The notes beneath the pieces were generated by a model. It was not told the origin of the DNA. It saw only the letters and a list, made by a program, of their open reading frames with translations, and ran no database searches. Both the position numbers and the translations under genes were made by a program. Source: Candidatus Brocadia sp. (GTDB taxonomy: Bacteria; Planctomycetota; Brocadiia; Brocadiales; Brocadiaceae). Taken from it: 64,000 nt of DNA. The stretch spans positions 1 to 64,000 of the forward strand of contig SOEU01000015.1 in NCBI GenBank assembly GCA_021646415.1, written 5' to 3'. Shown here piece after piece: positions 2,495 to 37,927 of the stretch (its first letter is position 1; each line of letters begins with the position of its first letter).

Positions 2495-3298
2495 ATGAAA
2501 ACGGTTGCTGGAATTGACATCGGTTCAACGACTACAAAAGCCGTAATAATGCGCGGACATACAATCATCGGCTCAAAAACTTCCTCTACAGGAACCAACT
2601 GCAAGAAAACCGTAAAACTATTGCTCAGTGAAATACTGGAAGATTGTAACCTCAGAGACAATGAACTTCAATACACCGTAGCTACCGGTTATGGTCGCAG
2701 AATAGTACCCGCAGATGAGATTGTCACAGAAATAACAGCTAATGCTAAGGCTGCCAAATGGCTTATGTGTGATAAAGTAAACGTAAGAACCCTTATCAAC
2801 ATCGGTGGACAGGACTGCAAAGTAATCTCCCTGGATGATACTGGTATAATGACAGACTTTGCAATGAACGACAAATGCGCAGCCGGAACGGGACGTTTCT
2901 TAGAGGTTATGAGCCGTATCCTTGAAGTGGAATTAGACGAGTTGGGCATACTGTCCGAAAAGGCAGAAGATATACCCCATATAAATAGTTTGTGCACGGT
3001 CTTTGGTGAGTCTGAAGTCATTTCACTATTATCCCATGGGAGAAGGGTGGAAGACATCATTGCCGGCATCCACAAGTCTATTGCCAAGCGGGTAGGTTCC
3101 ATGGTCAAAAAAATTGGCATTAAAGAAGCGGTCTTCTTTGATGGGGGTCCTGCATTTAATAAGGGACTCAAGAGTGCGCTGGAACAAGAATTGAATGTAG
3201 ATTTACACGTCCCGTCAGACCCGCAAATCACTACAGCCCTGGGAGCGGCCATCATTGCCAGTGAACATTTCACCAAGAAATATAACGCAGCATTTTAG
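2495..3298 (+). CDS. Acyl-CoA dehydratase activase (HgdC/BadF/BadG family ATPase)
   Basis: Member of the ASKHA ATPase family whose homodimer carries one [4Fe-4S] cluster and uses ATP to drive single-electron transfer to 2-hydroxyacyl-CoA dehydratases or benzoyl-CoA-type reductases. The 267-residue length equals that of HgdC-type activators. Phosphate-binding GIDIGSTTTKAVI is at residues 6-18, INIGGQDCKVI at 101-111, and NDKCAAGTGRFLE at 125-137. Cys128 and Cys167 (SLCTVFGESE) match the two cluster-ligand cysteines of the family. Late FFDGGPAFN and ALGAAI motifs complete the ATPase fold. No dehydratase or reductase subunit lies beside it, so the partner is unknown. ATG start with only a weak ribosome-binding site; neighbours on both sides are on the opposite strand, so it is monocistronic. 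Confidence 0.88.
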   Translation: MKTVAGIDIGSTTTKAVIMRGHTIIGSKTSSTGTNCKKTVKLLLSEILEDCNLRDNELQYTVATGYGRRIVPADEIVTEITANAKAAKWLMCDKVNVRTLINIGGQDCKVISLDDTGIMTDFAMNDKCAAGTGRFLEVMSRILEVELDELGILSEKAEDIPHINSLCTVFGESEVISLLSHGRRVEDIIAGIHKSIAKRVGSMVKKIGIKEAVFFDGGPAFNKGLKSALEQELNVDLHVPSDPQITTALGAAIIASEHFTKKYNAAF

Positions 3299-3775: not shown

Positions 3776-4367
3776 TAGGATTATTTGTACCTATAAAATT
3801 GTTTAGCATTTCTTGAACTATTTCCAAAGGCAAACCAATTGCGTTTGAATAGCTACCTTCCATTTTTTCAATAAATTTTTTCCCTTCCCCTTGCACAGCG
3901 TATGCGCCTGCCTTATCCATAGGTTCACCTGATTTAACATACATCTCAATTTCGTTTTCACTAATATACTTTATTTTAATATGAGTCCGATCGATTCGCA
4001 ATAATTTCTTTTTTGAAGGCATATCGATAATACATACACCTGAAAGAATATCGTGTTCAGAAGCACTCAGTAAGGAAAGGATTCTCCTGGCATCTTGTGT
4101 ATCCCTTGGTTTACCCAATATTTTTTTCTCCTGTACCACAATTGTATCTGCACTAATAATTATGGCATTATCCACTCTTCTGGCAACATCACTTGCCTTT
4201 AAAAAAGCTAGATTCTGAACTAACTCTGCCGGCAAAACATTGTCGAGGAAGCATTCTTCTATATTATGTGGTATAACATCAAAATGATATCCTAACATTT
4301 TTAGCAAAGCAATCCGTCTCGGTGAATTTGAAGCTAGTACTAAACGCTTCTTAAGAATAATTTTCAT
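3759..4367 (-). CDS. maf: Maf-family nucleotide pyrophosphatase
   Basis: Predicted cytosolic pyrophosphatase acting on non-canonical or methylated NTPs (dTTP/UTP or m7GTP subfamily not resolved here). The 202 residues include LASNSPRRIALLKMLG near residues 11-26, the SADTIVV motif with the catalytic Asp near 72, ILGKPRD, and the conserved YVKSGEPMDKAGAYAVQG segment near 143-160. ATG at 4367 lies only 13 bases past the hairpin terminator that ends rplQ, so expression depends on read-through or on a promoter inside the end of rplQ. The phosphatase gene overlaps its 3' end. Confidence 0.92.
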   Translation of the reverse strand: MKIILKKRLVLASNSPRRIALLKMLGYHFDVIPHNIEECFLDNVLPAELVQNLAFLKASDVARRVDNAIIISADTIVVQEKKILGKPRDTQDARRILSLLSASEHDILSGVCIIDMPSKKKLLRIDRTHIKIKYISENEIEMYVKSGEPMDKAGAYAVQGEGKKFIEKMEGSYSNAIGLPLEIVQEMLNNFIGTNNPNAKKL

Positions 4368-4379
4368 TTTAATAAAAAA

Positions 4380-4409
4380 ACCCTTCTACTATTTACTTAG
4401 TAGAAGGGT
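4380..4409 (-). terminator. Intrinsic terminator at the end of the ribosomal-protein block
   Basis: A perfect 12-base stem (ACCCTTCTACTA at 4380-4391 with TAGTAGAAGGGT at 4398-4409) with a 6-base loop. Read on the minus strand, the stem is followed directly by seven T residues (4374-4380 on the plus strand are A). It sits 41 bases after the rplQ stop and is the only textbook rho-independent terminator I see in the core block. Confidence 0.93.
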
Positions 4410-4450: not shown

Positions 4451-5011
4451 TTAAGCAGTGGTAACCTCTGGTTTAATTTCCTCAGCGGATTTCGCTTCAA
4501 CTGCACCTTCGACTAACTCAAAGATTACGCGAGATGCATTATCATTGAGACGTCTGCCCAGTAAGCGCAATTTTCGGTCTCTGCCTTCCATAGTATATTC
4601 AAGTTCAGGTATTTTCCCAATACTTCCACCCGATAGAACTCCTAACCGGGTCCCTGATAGCTTTAATATTCTTGTATACCCACCATTCCTATTCATATAT
4701 CTTTGGGCAAGACCTCCCGTTTCCCGCCATTGCCCTTCTCCAAATAGTTTCCTTACGACATCAACATTTCTCAATTTTGCAAGGACCTGACGATAACAAT
4801 GGACATAACCCGGCTTATCAGTATTCTTTTTTAATAACCCTTTCTTAGCAGTCGTGATTACCTTTTCAGCAAACGATTTCGTCTCTTTTGCCTTTTCAAG
4901 TGTTGTAATAATTCTCCCATAGGTAAAAAGGCTGTTTACAATATTCTGTCTTAATGCCTTTCTGTGAGCGGCGGTCCTTGATAAATGTCTTCCTCTCATT
5001 CTGTGTCTCAT
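4451..5011 (-). CDS. rplQ: 50S ribosomal protein L17
   Basis: Large-subunit protein near the exit tunnel. The N-terminal MRHRMRGRHLSRTAAHRKAL and the YTRILKL core motif are typical. At 186 residues it is longer than the 116-130 of most bacteria: there is an insert before the last core strand and a charged tail rich in Glu and Ala after residue 168. It is the last gene of the alpha operon, 3 bases after rpoA, followed by the terminator at 4380-4409. Confidence 0.96.
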   Translation of the reverse strand: MRHRMRGRHLSRTAAHRKALRQNIVNSLFTYGRIITTLEKAKETKSFAEKVITTAKKGLLKKNTDKPGYVHCYRQVLAKLRNVDVVRKLFGEGQWRETGGLAQRYMNRNGGYTRILKLSGTRLGVLSGGSIGKIPELEYTMEGRDRKLRLLGRRLNDNASRVIFELVEGAVEAKSAEEIKPEVTTA

Positions 5012-5014
5012 GGA

Positions 5015-6031
5015 CTATCCTTTCCCTTCTTCCGTTTGTTTAATTGCCACATGCATTCCGATCGACAAGCTTAGCTGTGACAATTTTGTCTTTACTTCTT
5101 TTAAAGTAGTTTTACCAAAATTTTTTATCCTTAGGAGTTGTTCTTCCGTCTTCGCAACAAGATCTCCTACCGTCGCAATGCCCGAGGTCTCAAGACAATT
5201 GGAAGCCCTTACTGATAAATCCAGCTCTGTTATTGGCATACTTAGCTTTTTATTAAGCTCTTCCTCAGATATCTCCAGGACTGTTTCTATTCCCATTCTC
5301 TTTTCTACTTGCTGTAATTCGCGGCCTATCTCAAAATATTGTACAAACGGATTTAAATGTTTCCTCATAATTTTTGCTGCTTCAACTAAGGCCATCTCAG
5401 GGGAAACCACACTGTTTGTAAATATTTCCATAACAATCTTATCATAATTTGTACGTCTCCCAACGCGTGTTTCTTCGATAGTATAACGAACGTTTCTTAC
5501 GGGAGAAAATAATGAATCGACGGGAATTAAACCAACTTCCTGCTCATCAGATTCGTTTTCCTCAGCCGTCACATATCCTCGGCCTTTTCGCACTTCCATT
5601 TCTACAATAAAATTTATATCCTCGGAGAGCGTAGCAATGTGCAAATCTCCATTTACGATCTCCACGCTGGCATCCGTAATAATATCTTTTGCTTTTATTT
5701 CCCCTTTTTTGTTCGCATCAATTTTTATTATCTTCGGTTGGTCAGTGTGTAGTTTCACAACCAGATTTTTAATGTTCAATATTATATCTGCCACATCTTC
5801 CACAACACCAGGAATAGTAGTAAATTCATGGCTCACACCATTTATTTTAACGGATACAACCGCACTTCCCTCCAACGAAGAAAGTAAAATTCTACGTAAA
5901 CTATTGCCAATGGAATGCCCAAAACCACGCTCAAACGGAGCAGCTATAAACTTGCCATATTTATCGGTCAAAGTCTCTTTTTCCACATCCACACGGACAG
6001 GAAGTTCGAGACCTCTCCACCTTATTCGCAT
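5015..6031 (-). CDS. rpoA: DNA-directed RNA polymerase subunit alpha
   Basis: 338 residues. The N-terminal assembly domain (about 1-235) contains ERGFGHSIGNSLRRILLSS near residues 34-52. The C-terminal domain (about 265-330), which contacts UP elements and activators, contains LDLSVRASNCLETSGI and LLRIKNFGKTTLKEVK. ATG at 6031 with a G-rich stretch just upstream. It lies 156 bases after rpsD, one of the larger gaps in the block, and is followed at once by rplQ. Confidence 0.98.
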   Translation of the reverse strand: MRIRWRGLELPVRVDVEKETLTDKYGKFIAAPFERGFGHSIGNSLRRILLSSLEGSAVVSVKINGVSHEFTTIPGVVEDVADIILNIKNLVVKLHTDQPKIIKIDANKKGEIKAKDIITDASVEIVNGDLHIATLSEDINFIVEMEVRKGRGYVTAEENESDEQEVGLIPVDSLFSPVRNVRYTIEETRVGRRTNYDKIVMEIFTNSVVSPEMALVEAAKIMRKHLNPFVQYFEIGRELQQVEKRMGIETVLEISEEELNKKLSMPITELDLSVRASNCLETSGIATVGDLVAKTEEQLLRIKNFGKTTLKEVKTKLSQLSLSIGMHVAIKQTEEGKG

Positions 6032-6187: not shown

Positions 6188-6814
6188 TTATTTAGAACAC
6201 AGTTCAACTATTAACTGTTCTTGAACAGGAACTGAAGTATCTTCCCTTGTAGGGAGTTGTATTACCACCCCTTCCAGCGTATCAGCTTTAAATTGAACCC
6301 AAGCGGGAAGATGCCGACCTTTTACCAATTCGATATTTGCTTTCACAATGTTTTGGCTCACCTCGCTATTTCCTGGTTTTATGATATCACCAATCTTTAC
6401 AAGGTAAGATGCAATATCTACTTTTTTACTATTAACCATTACGTGGCCATGCAAAACAAGCTGCCTTGCACTTTTTCTAGACGCTGCAAAAGAAAGCAAA
6501 TAAACAACATTATCAAGCCTTCTCTCCAGCATGTTCAAAAGATTTTCTCCCGTATTTCCCTTTTGTCTTTCTGCTTTTCTAAAATAATTCCGAAATTGTC
6601 TTTCCAAAATCCCGTAAAATCGCTTTACTTTCTGTTTTTCTCTAAATTGTATGCCATACTTCGACAATTTACCTCTGCCCCACGTAAATTGGCCTGGAGG
6701 ATATTTACGCTTTGTAATTGCACACTTTACGGTGTCACACCTCATTCCTTTAAGAAATAGTTTTTCACCCTCCCGCCTACACAATCTGCACTGCGGACCT
6801 ACATATCTTGCCAT
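6188..6814 (-). CDS. rpsD: 30S ribosomal protein S4 (zinc-type)
   Basis: 208-residue primary 16S rRNA-binding protein. The N-terminus carries four cysteines at 9, 12, 26 and 31 (QCRLC and RCDTVKC), the zinc-binding variant of S4. The S4 RNA-binding domain follows near residues 96-160 ([27 protein letters not shown]). In many bacteria S4 represses the alpha operon by binding its mRNA leader; I could not identify that structure here. It lies between rpsK and rpoA. Confidence 0.97.
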
Positions 6815-6849: not shown

Positions 6850-7230
6850 TTATACCCTGCGCTTTTTCCTGGGCCGACAACCGTTGTGGGGAAGCGGCGT
6901 TACATCCTCAATCGCTTTCACACTCAGACCTGCTGCTTGAAGTGCCGTAATTGCCGACTCTCTGCCTGGACCAGGTCCTTTCACCCTGATTTCAATTTCC
7001 TGGACCCCAAATCTTTGGGCTTTCTCTGCCGCACTTGACGCCGCCTTCTGAGCAGCAAAAGGAGTGCTTTTACGAGACCCTTTAAATCCAACAGTACCAG
7101 CACTTGCCCAACATATTGTCTCGCCATTAATATCTGAAATTGTGACATAAGTATTATTAAAAGTCGCTTTTATATTAGCAATTGCTCGTGTTACATTACG
7201 TCTTATCTTTTTCTTACCAATACTTGACAT
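6850..7230 (-). CDS. rpsK: 30S ribosomal protein S11
   Basis: 126-residue platform protein of the small subunit. Core motifs [16 protein letters not shown] near 16-31 and the basic C-terminus [13 protein letters not shown] are conserved. In almost all bacteria it directly follows rpsM; here a methyltransferase gene of 837 bases separates the two, and the spacing to that gene is 35 bases. Confidence 0.97.
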
Positions 7231-7265: not shown

Positions 7266-8102
7266 TTAACTATTAACAGAACTAAGGCAATCACTCCGTT
7301 TTAATTCACGTTCATCAAAATAATTTTTTAAAACAAAATCTGTATTAAACATTTCGTCCAGTTTTTTATATTTGTCCATGTTGCAATTTCCATATTCTTT
7401 TTTTCTTCGCGCTATAATCATTAGATTTTTTGGAGTAAATTTGGGAGATACGATCTCAGTAAGTTTCACATGATAGCCAGCGCCCGTAAGGAATTGCGAC
7501 CTCAAGGCCTCTGTTAAAATGTCTGCAAAACGATATCTTAAAAGTCCAAAATCGGTTAAATCGACTAGCGGATGCCCAGACTTCAACCGACCCCGTATTT
7601 GATTCTCACAACACGGAACCACAATTATATATTTTGCCTCAAGTTTAATACCTTTGGCAATTGTCTCATCAGTGGCAATATCACATGCATGTAATGCAAT
7701 CACTAAATCAACGGGCTTTTCGGGCTGAACTTCAATAATCCTGCCGTTGATGAAATACATATTTCTAAAACCTAGGATATCTCTAATTCGCTCACACTTC
7801 TCTATCAATACTCGGTTGGTATCTACACCATAAAAAAAAGTTTTTATAGCTAACCGTTTCGAAAAAATATAATTTAAGGCGAATGACAAATATGATTTAC
7901 CGCACGAACAATCAAGAAACACAATCTCTTTATCTGTCTTATACGTTTCTATAATCCGCAGAACTTGTTCGCAAAACCCTACCACCTCATTGAATTTCTT
8001 TATTTCCCTATCTTCACCAGAATGATCAAGATTTAGATCAAGAACCTTTAATAATTCTCCGCCAGATTTTAATATCTCCTCTATTGCTTCTTTAGTTTTC
8101 AT
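7266..8102 (-). CDS. Class I SAM-dependent methyltransferase (Methyltransf_32-like) inside the alpha operon
   Basis: 278-residue predicted Rossmann-fold methyltransferase. Motif I is [15 protein letters not shown] at residues 62-76, the acidic ribose-binding motif is YGVDTN at 91-96, and [11 protein letters not shown] at 136-146 with VPCCENQ at 162-168 are the hallmark segments of the family I would name Methyltransf_32 (PF13679). The substrate is unknown; the relatives include RNA- and protein-directed enzymes. It is co-directional with rpsM (55 bases upstream) and rpsK (35 bases downstream), with no promoter or terminator visible, so co-transcription with ribosomal proteins is likely. A ribosomal protein or rRNA target is possible, but that is inference from position only. 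Confidence 0.82.
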
Positions 8103-8157: not shown

Positions 8158-8541
8158 CTAACCCAGCTCTTTTACACTCTTCTTACCAGCCACTGTCTTT
8201 TTACGACCTTTTCTCGTGCGTGCATTTGTTTTAGTTCTTTGTCCCCTCACTGGTAAACCTACTTTGTGTCGTATCCCACGGTAACAGTTGATACTTTTCA
8301 TCCGCGCAATATTTTGCATTTCCTGCCTGCGCAACTGACCTTCGATGGTAAAATTCTTTTCGATATATGCACCTAGCATACTCAGTTGATCTTCATGGAG
8401 GTCCTTTGCACGTACATTCTCGTCGATATTCAAATCTTTCAATATCTTCTGCGAAAGCGCCTTCCCAATTCCATAAATGTAGGTAAGTGCAATCACTACC
8501 CTTTTGTCAGCAGGAATATCGTTTCCAGCAATTCTTGGCAT
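8158..8541 (-). CDS. rpsM: 30S ribosomal protein S13
   Basis: 127-residue head protein that contacts P-site tRNA and the B1 bridges. The N-terminus MPRIAGNDIPADKRV, the helix-two-turn-helix YIYGIGKALSQKIL near 23-36, and the basic tail GLPVRGQRTKTNARTRKG are conserved. ATG at 8541 follows an AGGAAT ribosome-binding site. It is 43 bases after rpmJ. Confidence 0.97.
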   Translation of the reverse strand: MPRIAGNDIPADKRVVIALTYIYGIGKALSQKILKDLNIDENVRAKDLHEDQLSMLGAYIEKNFTIEGQLRRQEMQNIARMKSINCYRGIRHKVGLPVRGQRTKTNARTRKGRKKTVAGKKSVKELG

Positions 8542-8584: not shown

Positions 8585-8698
8585 TCATCCCTGCCTTTGT
8601 TTATGGCGAGGATTTGAGCAAATAACACGTACCACATTTCTTCTTCTTACTATCTTACAGTTTTCACAAATTCGCTTTACAGAAGCCCGAACTTTCAT
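8585..8698 (-). CDS. rpmJ: 50S ribosomal protein L36 (zinc-type)
   Basis: Small gene of 37 codons read directly from the minus strand between infA and rpsM. It begins [15 protein letters not shown] and ends RHKQRQG. Cys11, Cys14, Cys27 and His32 form the C-C-C-H zinc ribbon of the classical L36. Position between infA and rpsM is the conserved one. Confidence 0.95.
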
Positions 8699-8748: not shown

Positions 8749-8967
8749 TTACACTTGTCTATAAATAATTCTGCCTTTATCGAGATCGTATGGTGACATT
8801 TCTATTGTCACTTTATCACCTGGCAATATCTTGATAAAATGCATCCGCATTTTTCCAGAAACATGTGCAAGTACCCTATGTCCATTCTGCAATTCTACCC
8901 AGAACATCGCATTAGGTAATGCTTCTTTTACAGTAGCTTCAACCCTAATTGGCTCTTCTTTTGCCAT
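8749..8967 (-). CDS. infA: Translation initiation factor IF-1
   Basis: 72 residues, the standard length. It is an OB-fold protein that occupies the A site during initiation, with [18 protein letters not shown] near 13-30, [15 protein letters not shown] near 39-53 and a [12 protein letters not shown]-terminus. It follows map by 23 bases and precedes rpmJ. Confidence 0.97.
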
Positions 8968-20892: not shown

Positions 20893-22095
20893 TTATTCAA
20901 TAATTTTTGTAACGACGCCGGCGCCGACAGTCTTTCCACCCTCCCGGATAGCAAACCTCAACCCCTCATCCATCGCTATCGGTGTCAGCAACTCCACATT
21001 TACCTTCACATTATCACCAGGCATCACCATCTCTGCACCACCCGTCAAGCTTACCACCCCCGTCACATCCGTCGTCCTGAAATAGAACTGCGGCCTATAC
21101 CCATTAAAAAATGGTGTATGCCTGCCACCCTCTTCCTTCGTCAATATATATGCCTCTGCCTCATACTTCCTATGCGGAGTTATACTCCCCGGTTTCGCCA
21201 ACACCTGACCCCTCTCCAAATCATCCTTCTCTATACCTCTCAGCAACACCCCAAGGTTGTCTCCCGCCTGCCCCTCATCCAACGTCTTATTAAACATCTC
21301 CACCCCTGTCACTACAGACTTCTTAATCTCCGGCCTTATCCCTACGATATCCACCTCATCGCCAACCTTCACCTTACCCCTCTCCACCCTCCCAGTTCCC
21401 ACTGTACCCCGTCCTTTGATACTAAACACATCTTCCACCGACATCAAAAACGGCTTATCTATCTCTCTTACTGGGTCGGGAATATATGCATCCACTGCCT
21501 CCATCAACTTCAACACAGGTCCGCAATTCGCGCACGTCGCCGCCCCACACCCGCACTCATTCGCCTTGAGCGCCGACCCCCTGATCACCGGTATCTCATC
21601 CCCGGGGAAATTGTACTTACTCAACAACTCGCGAACCTCCATCTCCACCAAATCCAACAACTCCTTATCCTCGAGCATATCCACCTTGTTCATAAACACC
21701 ACAATCCTCGGCACCCCAACCTGCCTCGCCAGCAATATATGCTCCCGCGTCTGCGGCATTGGCCCATCCGGCGCACTCACCACCAGTATCGCACCATCCA
21801 TCTGCGCCGCTCCGGTTATCATATTCTTCACGTAATCCGCATGCCCAGGACAATCAACATGCGCATAATGCCTCTTTTGCGTCTCGTACTCCACATGTGA
21901 TATCGCTATTGTTATACCCCTCTCCCTCTCCTCCGGCGCCTTGTCTATCGAATCATACGCCCTCTCCTTGGCCAACCCCTGCTTCGCCAATACATGTGTT
22001 ATCACTGACGTCAACGTCGTCTTCCCGTGATCCACATGCCCTATCGTCCCCACATTCACATGCGGCTTCGTCCGCTTAAATACTTCTTTACCCAT
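20893..22095 (-). CDS. tuf: Elongation factor Tu, copy 1 (str operon)
   Basis: GTPase that brings aminoacyl-tRNA to the ribosome. 400 residues: P-loop GHVDHGKT at 19-26, DCPGH at 81-85 and NKVD at 136-139, then the two beta-barrel domains. Domain 1 contains an unusual cysteine cluster, Cys181, Cys183, Cys188 and Cys191 (C-X-C-X4-C-X2-C), where E. coli EF-Tu has none. The gene is identical at protein level to copy 2 at 36725-37927, and the nucleotide sequences appear identical from just after the start codon to the stop and a few bases beyond. Codon use (many G/C-ending and strongly preferred codons) differs visibly from neighbours. It lies after fusA and before rpsJ. Confidence 0.98.
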
Positions 22096-36724: not shown

Positions 36725-37927
36725 TTATTCAATAATTTTTGTAACGACGCCGGCGCCGACAGTCTTTCCACCCTCCCGGATAGCAAACCTCAACCCCTCA
36801 TCCATCGCTATCGGTGTCAGCAACTCCACATTTACCTTCACATTATCACCAGGCATCACCATCTCTGCACCACCCGTCAAGCTTACCACCCCCGTCACAT
36901 CCGTCGTCCTGAAATAGAACTGCGGCCTATACCCATTAAAAAATGGTGTATGCCTGCCACCCTCTTCCTTCGTCAATATATATGCCTCTGCCTCATACTT
37001 CCTATGCGGAGTTATACTCCCCGGTTTCGCCAACACCTGACCCCTCTCCAAATCATCCTTCTCTATACCTCTCAGCAACACCCCAAGGTTGTCTCCCGCC
37101 TGCCCCTCATCCAACGTCTTATTAAACATCTCCACCCCTGTCACTACAGACTTCTTAATCTCCGGCCTTATCCCTACGATATCCACCTCATCGCCAACCT
37201 TCACCTTACCCCTCTCCACCCTCCCAGTTCCCACTGTACCCCGTCCTTTGATACTAAACACATCTTCCACCGACATCAAAAACGGCTTATCTATCTCTCT
37301 TACTGGGTCGGGAATATATGCATCCACTGCCTCCATCAACTTCAACACAGGTCCGCAATTCGCGCACGTCGCCGCCCCACACCCGCACTCATTCGCCTTG
37401 AGCGCCGACCCCCTGATCACCGGTATCTCATCCCCGGGGAAATTGTACTTACTCAACAACTCGCGAACCTCCATCTCCACCAAATCCAACAACTCCTTAT
37501 CCTCGAGCATATCCACCTTGTTCATAAACACCACAATCCTCGGCACCCCAACCTGCCTCGCCAGCAATATATGCTCCCGCGTCTGCGGCATTGGCCCATC
37601 CGGCGCACTCACCACCAGTATCGCACCATCCATCTGCGCCGCTCCGGTTATCATATTCTTCACGTAATCCGCATGCCCAGGACAATCAACATGCGCATAA
37701 TGCCTCTTTTGCGTCTCGTACTCCACATGTGATATCGCTATTGTTATACCCCTCTCCCTCTCCTCCGGCGCCTTGTCTATCGAATCATACGCCCTCTCCT
37801 TGGCCAACCCCTGCTTCGCCAATACATGTGTTATCACTGACGTCAACGTCGTCTTCCCGTGATCCACATGCCCTATCGTCCCCACATTCACATGCGGCTT
37901 CGTCCGCTTAAATACTTCTTTACCCAT
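36725..37927 (-). CDS. tuf: Elongation factor Tu, copy 2 (tufB-type operon)
   Basis: 400 residues, identical to copy 1 at 20893-22095, including the cysteine cluster at Cys181, Cys183, Cys188 and Cys191. The offset between copies is 15832 bases, and identity stops just outside the gene: upstream sequences diverge right after the ATG, downstream after about five bases. It is preceded by tRNA-Thr(GGT), tRNA-Gly, tRNA-Tyr and tRNA-Thr(TGT), the same order as the E. coli tufB operon, and followed by rpmG. Near-perfect identity over this distance implies recent gene conversion or duplication. Confidence 0.98.

Follow-up and report, generated by a model that had tools for sequence, protein, structure and literature searches.

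The methyltransferase gene and its operon

The window, a 64,000-nucleotide stretch of DNA from Candidatus Brocadia sp., contains a series of genes on the minus strand that run in the 5′ to 3′ order rpsM, methyltransferase, rpsK, rpsD, rpoA and rplQ, with infA, map, adk and secY lying farther upstream (Table 1). The names map, adk, secY and rplQ are those that we presume from the translations. An earlier note had proposed that an 837-base class I methyltransferase gene with Methyltransf_32-type motifs was inserted between rpsM and rpsK, in the same direction and with short gaps. This is borne out on each point. The open reading frame lies on the same strand as its neighbors, and is separated by 55 nt from rpsM and by 35 nt from rpsK. 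A Pfam scan places its product as a class I SAM-dependent methyltransferase of the family PF13679 (Methyltransf_32; E = 1.6e-34), scoring 119.4 bits where the cut-off is 27, with a full-length match to positions 1-142 of the 143 in the profile.

Table 1. Features of the ribosomal protein locus and of the encoded methyltransferase.
Feature	Position	Strand	Comment
infA	8749-8967	-	Pfam scan
rpmJ-like frame	8588-8698	-	36 aa, upstream of rpsM; named by translation
rpsM (S13)	8158-8541	-	directly upstream of the methyltransferase; Ribosomal_S13, E 3.5e-34
Methyltransferase gene	7266-8102	-	ATG start, 278 aa plus stop
SAM-binding loop SCGKSY	7890-7907	-	residues 66-71; invariant in 28/28 aligned orthologues
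Motif LHACxxATD	7668-7694	-	residues 137-145; H138, C140, D145 invariant in 28/28
Motif VPCC	7608-7619	-	residues 162-165; invariant in 28/28
C-terminal motif PKN	7425-7433	-	residues 224-226; invariant in 28/28
rpsK (S11)	6850-7230	-	directly downstream of the methyltransferase; Ribosomal_S11, E 5.3e-46
rpsD (S4)	6188-6814	-	Pfam scan
rpoA	5015-6031	-	Pfam scan
rplQ	4451-5011	-	named by translation and position, without Pfam scan
Terminator-like hairpin	4380-4409	-	12 pairs plus T run, after rplQ

Between infA and rpsD, no terminator-like site was found on the coding strand; a strong one comes after rplQ. No other terminator-like site found on this strand between positions 4300 and 12400 has so long a stem or so long a T run. 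The simplest reading is therefore that the methyltransferase gene belongs to the operon, and the gaps, the common orientation and the lack of a terminator suggest that it is co-transcribed with its neighbors. In seven genomes of one family (f2) the stop codon of the methyltransferase overlaps or touches rpsK, with gaps of -1 to -10 relative to a projected rpsK start, as expected for a single transcript. A scan of positions 1-30000 for RNA families revealed no known leader, with one sub-threshold match to an lncRNA, and the intergenic gaps gave RNA folds no better than those of shuffled sequences.

Distribution in the class and phylum

We examined 75 genomes of the GTDB class of Planctomycetota that holds Candidatus Brocadia, in which nine families were seen, locating the neighboring genes by tblastn on fetched loci. 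The complete rpsM-methyltransferase-rpsK arrangement is found on one contig, in the same order and orientation, in 68 of the 75, and this recurrence excludes a chance arrangement. Those relatives that bear a name are Candidatus Brocadia, Jettenia and Loosdrechtia. Three more genomes (G014, G059 and G070) have a partial arrangement running to the end of a contig, and one (G019) is uninformative because its contig begins inside rpsK. The insert is missing from the last three, two belonging to family f6 (G062 and G063) and one to f7 (G064), where rpsM and rpsK are 68, 30 and 16 nt apart, respectively. Outside the class, the two genes are likewise adjacent, at a distance of 18-171 nt, in 26 genomes of the phylum that were picked by hand. 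This makes 29 informative Planctomycetota genomes lacking the insert, in every one of which rpsM and rpsK are separated by 16-171 nt. Taking the 68 loci against families f6 and f7 and these 26 genomes, the insert is a class-level trait missing from two of the nine families.

The earlier note had stated that rpsM and rpsK are adjacent in nearly all bacteria; this holds for the 29 insert-free genomes of our comparison, which extended to this phylum. Its suggestion of lineage specificity agrees with the confinement of the insert to one class. A different location in close relatives, which the note had named as a finding that would count against its reading, is not what we see: the gene is in the same place in the 68 genomes, the remainder being accounted for by four contig ends and three insert-free loci. 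Our searches of the open-licence literature yielded no previous description of the arrangement.

A homologue of the methyltransferase is present in 58 of 59 relatives and in 73 of the 75 class genomes, and the window protein used as a query gives a single match within its own genome. Outside the class, Methyltransf_32 homologues do not lie beside these ribosomal genes, and their neighbors are varied and mostly non-ribosomal. The gap between the methyltransferase gene and rpsK is longest among the 68 complete loci in L030 (genome G020), at 286 nt. In Candidatus Brocadia sapporoensis (G010, loci L050 and L053) a break near residue 236 interrupts the methyltransferase frame, and the remainder lies in another frame; this could reflect either an assembly error or decay.

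Conserved residues and predicted fold

All of 28 divergent orthologues, with identities down to 39%, match PF13679, and 38 columns of their alignment are invariant. These include the motifs of Table 1, together with D94, C103, R170, T197, R201 and GY.V. With these residues conserved, the protein looks enzymatically active. Across 89 inserted proteins, a number that includes copies from two sources, the median pI is 8.7; the window protein has a pI of 8.3. A scan of the window protein against NCBIfam at E values up to 1 returned no family; there was thus no match to KsgA (TIGR00755) or RsmG/GidB (TIGR00138).

AlphaFold predicts a class I fold for the window protein, in a model whose confidence is moderate (pLDDT 73.6, pTM 0.74) and weaker after residue 160. 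Searching solved structures by sequence revealed no close relative, the best matches being generic methyltransferases, and comparison using Foldseek and VIA-align likewise indicates a generic class I fold. The 50 matches listed include the rRNA and tRNA methyltransferases RsmG, TrmR, tRNA m1A58 enzymes and Bud23 with Z of 9.6-10.7, and among those same matches catechol and other small-molecule methyltransferases tie with the RNA enzymes at equal Z. The similarity to RsmG/GidB (Z 10.7, rmsd 4.3 over 198 residues, 12% identity) is tied with that to unrelated methyltransferases. Since RsmG, catechol methyltransferases, TrmR and others score alike, structural comparison leaves the substrate undecided.

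Descent and selection

In a tree of 81 rows, 60 inserted proteins fall on one side of a branch with support of 100/99, separated from 21 other homologues. Most of the latter are about 400 residues long and have an additional N-terminal portion; families f16 and f45 have a short form. The approximately 400-residue proteins of other Planctomycetota share the domain with the window protein at 28-37% identity, but they differ from the inserted proteins in having about 120 additional N-terminal residues, in not lying beside these ribosomal genes and in forming a separate clade. A host tree calculated from five operon proteins puts the rows that carry the insert in two places, the order Brocadiales and f8 plus f9, requiring two changes. 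Constraining these rows to a single clade was not rejected (p-AU 0.136). Judged from these trees, one insertion followed by vertical descent would be the simplest reading, with the lack of the insert in f6 and f7 due either to loss or to its never having been acquired.

The dN/dS ratio of the methyltransferase gene lies between 0.03 and 0.18 in all eight comparisons of the window gene with those of eight Brocadiaceae loci. The gene is under purifying selection. Most of its ribosomal neighbors have lower ratios, and the methyltransferase evolves faster than they do.

Similarity to METTL25 and Trm13

The human proteins METTL25A and METTL25B-RRNAD1 are, we take it, members of PF13679. The window protein shares that domain with them, and differs in being bacterial, in its short form and in its fixed position within a ribosomal operon. 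We found no characterized member or substrate of Methyltransf_32 in the open-licence literature on the function of Methyltransf_32, METTL25 and Trm13, and a table in a 2026 review gives the targets of METTL25A/B as unknown (PMC13410288).

There is a weak match to the TRM13 family (PF05206) in 22 of the 28 orthologues at E values up to 0.1, the best being 5.1e-6. The window protein itself scores 13.9 bits, below the cut-off of 26, and one short-form homologue from family f16 exceeds it at 28.1 bits. A review of Trm13 describes a His-x-Cys and a Cys-Cys close to the SAM site, along with a late Glu, and for the yeast enzyme lists the conserved residues K307, H350 and E467 near SAM, with H308 and cysteines that include C310, C347 and C348 (PMC10608323). 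The invariant H138-A-C140 and C164-C165 of the window protein recall the residues so described, a likeness drawn from that description. No zinc-finger family was detected in the window protein by Pfam scan.

A possible function in the translation apparatus

The place of the gene gives a pointer to what the protein does. The rpsM-rpsK pair is unbroken in every other Planctomycetota genome of our comparison, and the gene is fixed between its members in 68 to 71 of the 75 class genomes; for a protein family lacking an assigned function, such a fixed place in an operon is a strong indication. It suggests that the enzyme may modify the translation machinery. The Trm13-like features and the company of the genes for S13, S11 and S4 make an RNA of the translation apparatus the most likely target. 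RNA as the substrate is what the distant Trm13-like motifs and the operon company would imply; these weak sequence hints, together with the gene position, favor RNA over protein. Among RNAs we infer 16S rRNA rather than tRNA. We therefore favor a stable, vertically maintained operon gene whose product methylates RNA of the translation apparatus, with 16S rRNA as the first choice, and would give this a probability of about 45%. The SAM-dependent methyltransferase would be made together with S13, S11, S4 and the α subunit of RNA polymerase, and would methylate its RNA target, if 16S rRNA then during assembly of the 30S subunit. Placement in the operon would make the supply of the enzyme track the production of ribosomes.

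Against this, position in an operon does not in itself prove function. Moreover, the three genomes of f6 and f7 do without the insert, homologues outside the class do not lie beside these ribosomal genes, and one relative, Candidatus Brocadia sapporoensis, has the broken frame described above. A more specific proposal, that the enzyme introduces a modification of 16S rRNA or tRNA not catalogued in other bacteria, in lineages mostly without RsmG and RsmI, we regard as doubtful.

If that proposal is correct, the METTL25/Methyltransf_32 family would gain its first defined activity, and Trm13 would have a counterpart in bacteria. A whole class, anammox bacteria included, would have a dedicated methyltransferase inside its core ribosomal operon. 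What we describe is a known protein family in a new arrangement that extends across the lineage, and a ribosome or RNA role for it is plausible.

Alternative targets and explanations

A function like that of eukaryotic Trm13, methylating the ribose or base of a tRNA, is in our view unlikely. Trm13 2′-O-methylates position 4 of tRNA, as the review cited above describes it (PMC10608323), and the weak matches of most orthologues and the above-threshold score of the f16 homologue are consistent with a related activity; yet the window protein is below the TRM13 cut-off, no link to a tRNA gene was seen, and a 2025 survey found no TRM13 in bacteria (PMC12155479). The target might instead be a ribosomal protein encoded alongside (S11, S13 or S4), in the manner of PrmA acting on L11. 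The methyltransferase gene lies directly between those for S13 and S11 in all 68 complete loci, and Escherichia coli S11 bears an N-terminal methyl group. However, the N-terminus of S11 is variable in insert-bearing genomes (beginning MSS, MSK, MAK, MGK or MTN) with no motif specific to them, and the Trm13-like features point to RNA, so that we consider a protein target decidedly unlikely. We consider it improbable that the gene is a passenger; on this view a small-molecule or orphan methyltransferase would have entered the operon a single time and stayed there since its removal would disturb the operon. The varied neighbors of homologues elsewhere and the faster evolution of the gene would be in keeping with this, but the active-site motifs are intact across sequences that are only 39% identical and dN/dS is well below 1, whereas a mere spacer would decay.

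There remains replacement of a known 16S rRNA methyltransferase. Of 73 class genomes, 66, that of the window among them, have a separate KsgA above cut-off and all have some match, and RsmD is above cut-off in 20 of 22. Because both are present, the inserted methyltransferase replaces neither, and we reject it as a substitute for them. RsmG (m7G527) could be another matter, being above cut-off in just one of the 22 class genomes tested, and its structures rank with the best of the fold matches. Across 294 genomes of the phylum, RsmG (E ≤ 1e-10) was found in 12 of 49 with a homologue of the methyltransferase (E ≤ 1e-10) and in 160 of 245 others (p = 1.6e-7, uncorrected for kinship), in counts read by hand that score some rows as RsmG-negative for absence from the list of positives, on the assumption that they formed part of the sample, and that place G019 among the genomes without the methyltransferase, despite a contig that starts within rpsK. 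Striking as they are, these raw counts are confounded by kinship. The tree offers only four independent pairs, of which on average one differs in the expected direction, none against it and three show no difference; RsmG loss does not track the methyltransferase gene in independent lineages. Furthermore, G064 lacks both the methyltransferase and RsmG, G018 has both, and the fold match is unspecific. Substitution for RsmG thus seems very improbable.

RsmI (2′-O-C1402) is, like RsmG, missing from most class genomes, each being above cut-off in 1 of 22. The absence of RsmI in 21 of 22 class genomes says little, because only 40 of 294 phylum genomes have it above cut-off. We also set aside the methyltransferase as an RsmI substitute; G084 and G169 carry RsmI together with a 400-residue homologue.

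Other observations

In all 20 insert-bearing rows listed, the tail of S13 has RKG and then R or K; the residue after RKG is P in many insert-free genomes, including the three from the same class, and R or K in some (f11, f16 and f64). At three loci of family f16 (L131, L134 and L135) the short-form Methyltransf_32 homologues have related long proteins as neighbors at a distance of no more than a few kb. The long protein scanned at L134 contains Peptidase_U32 and DUF3656, which we take to be domains of RNA-hydroxylating enzymes.

Within the window, a plus-strand frame at 2495-3298, near the end of the ribosomal operon, has a translation that by eye resembles a BadF/HgdC-type activator ATPase. 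Two minus-strand frames at 20893-22095 and 36725-37927 are each exactly 400 aa long and have the same pattern of shadow frames. They are probably a duplicated gene, which we would guess to be tuf.
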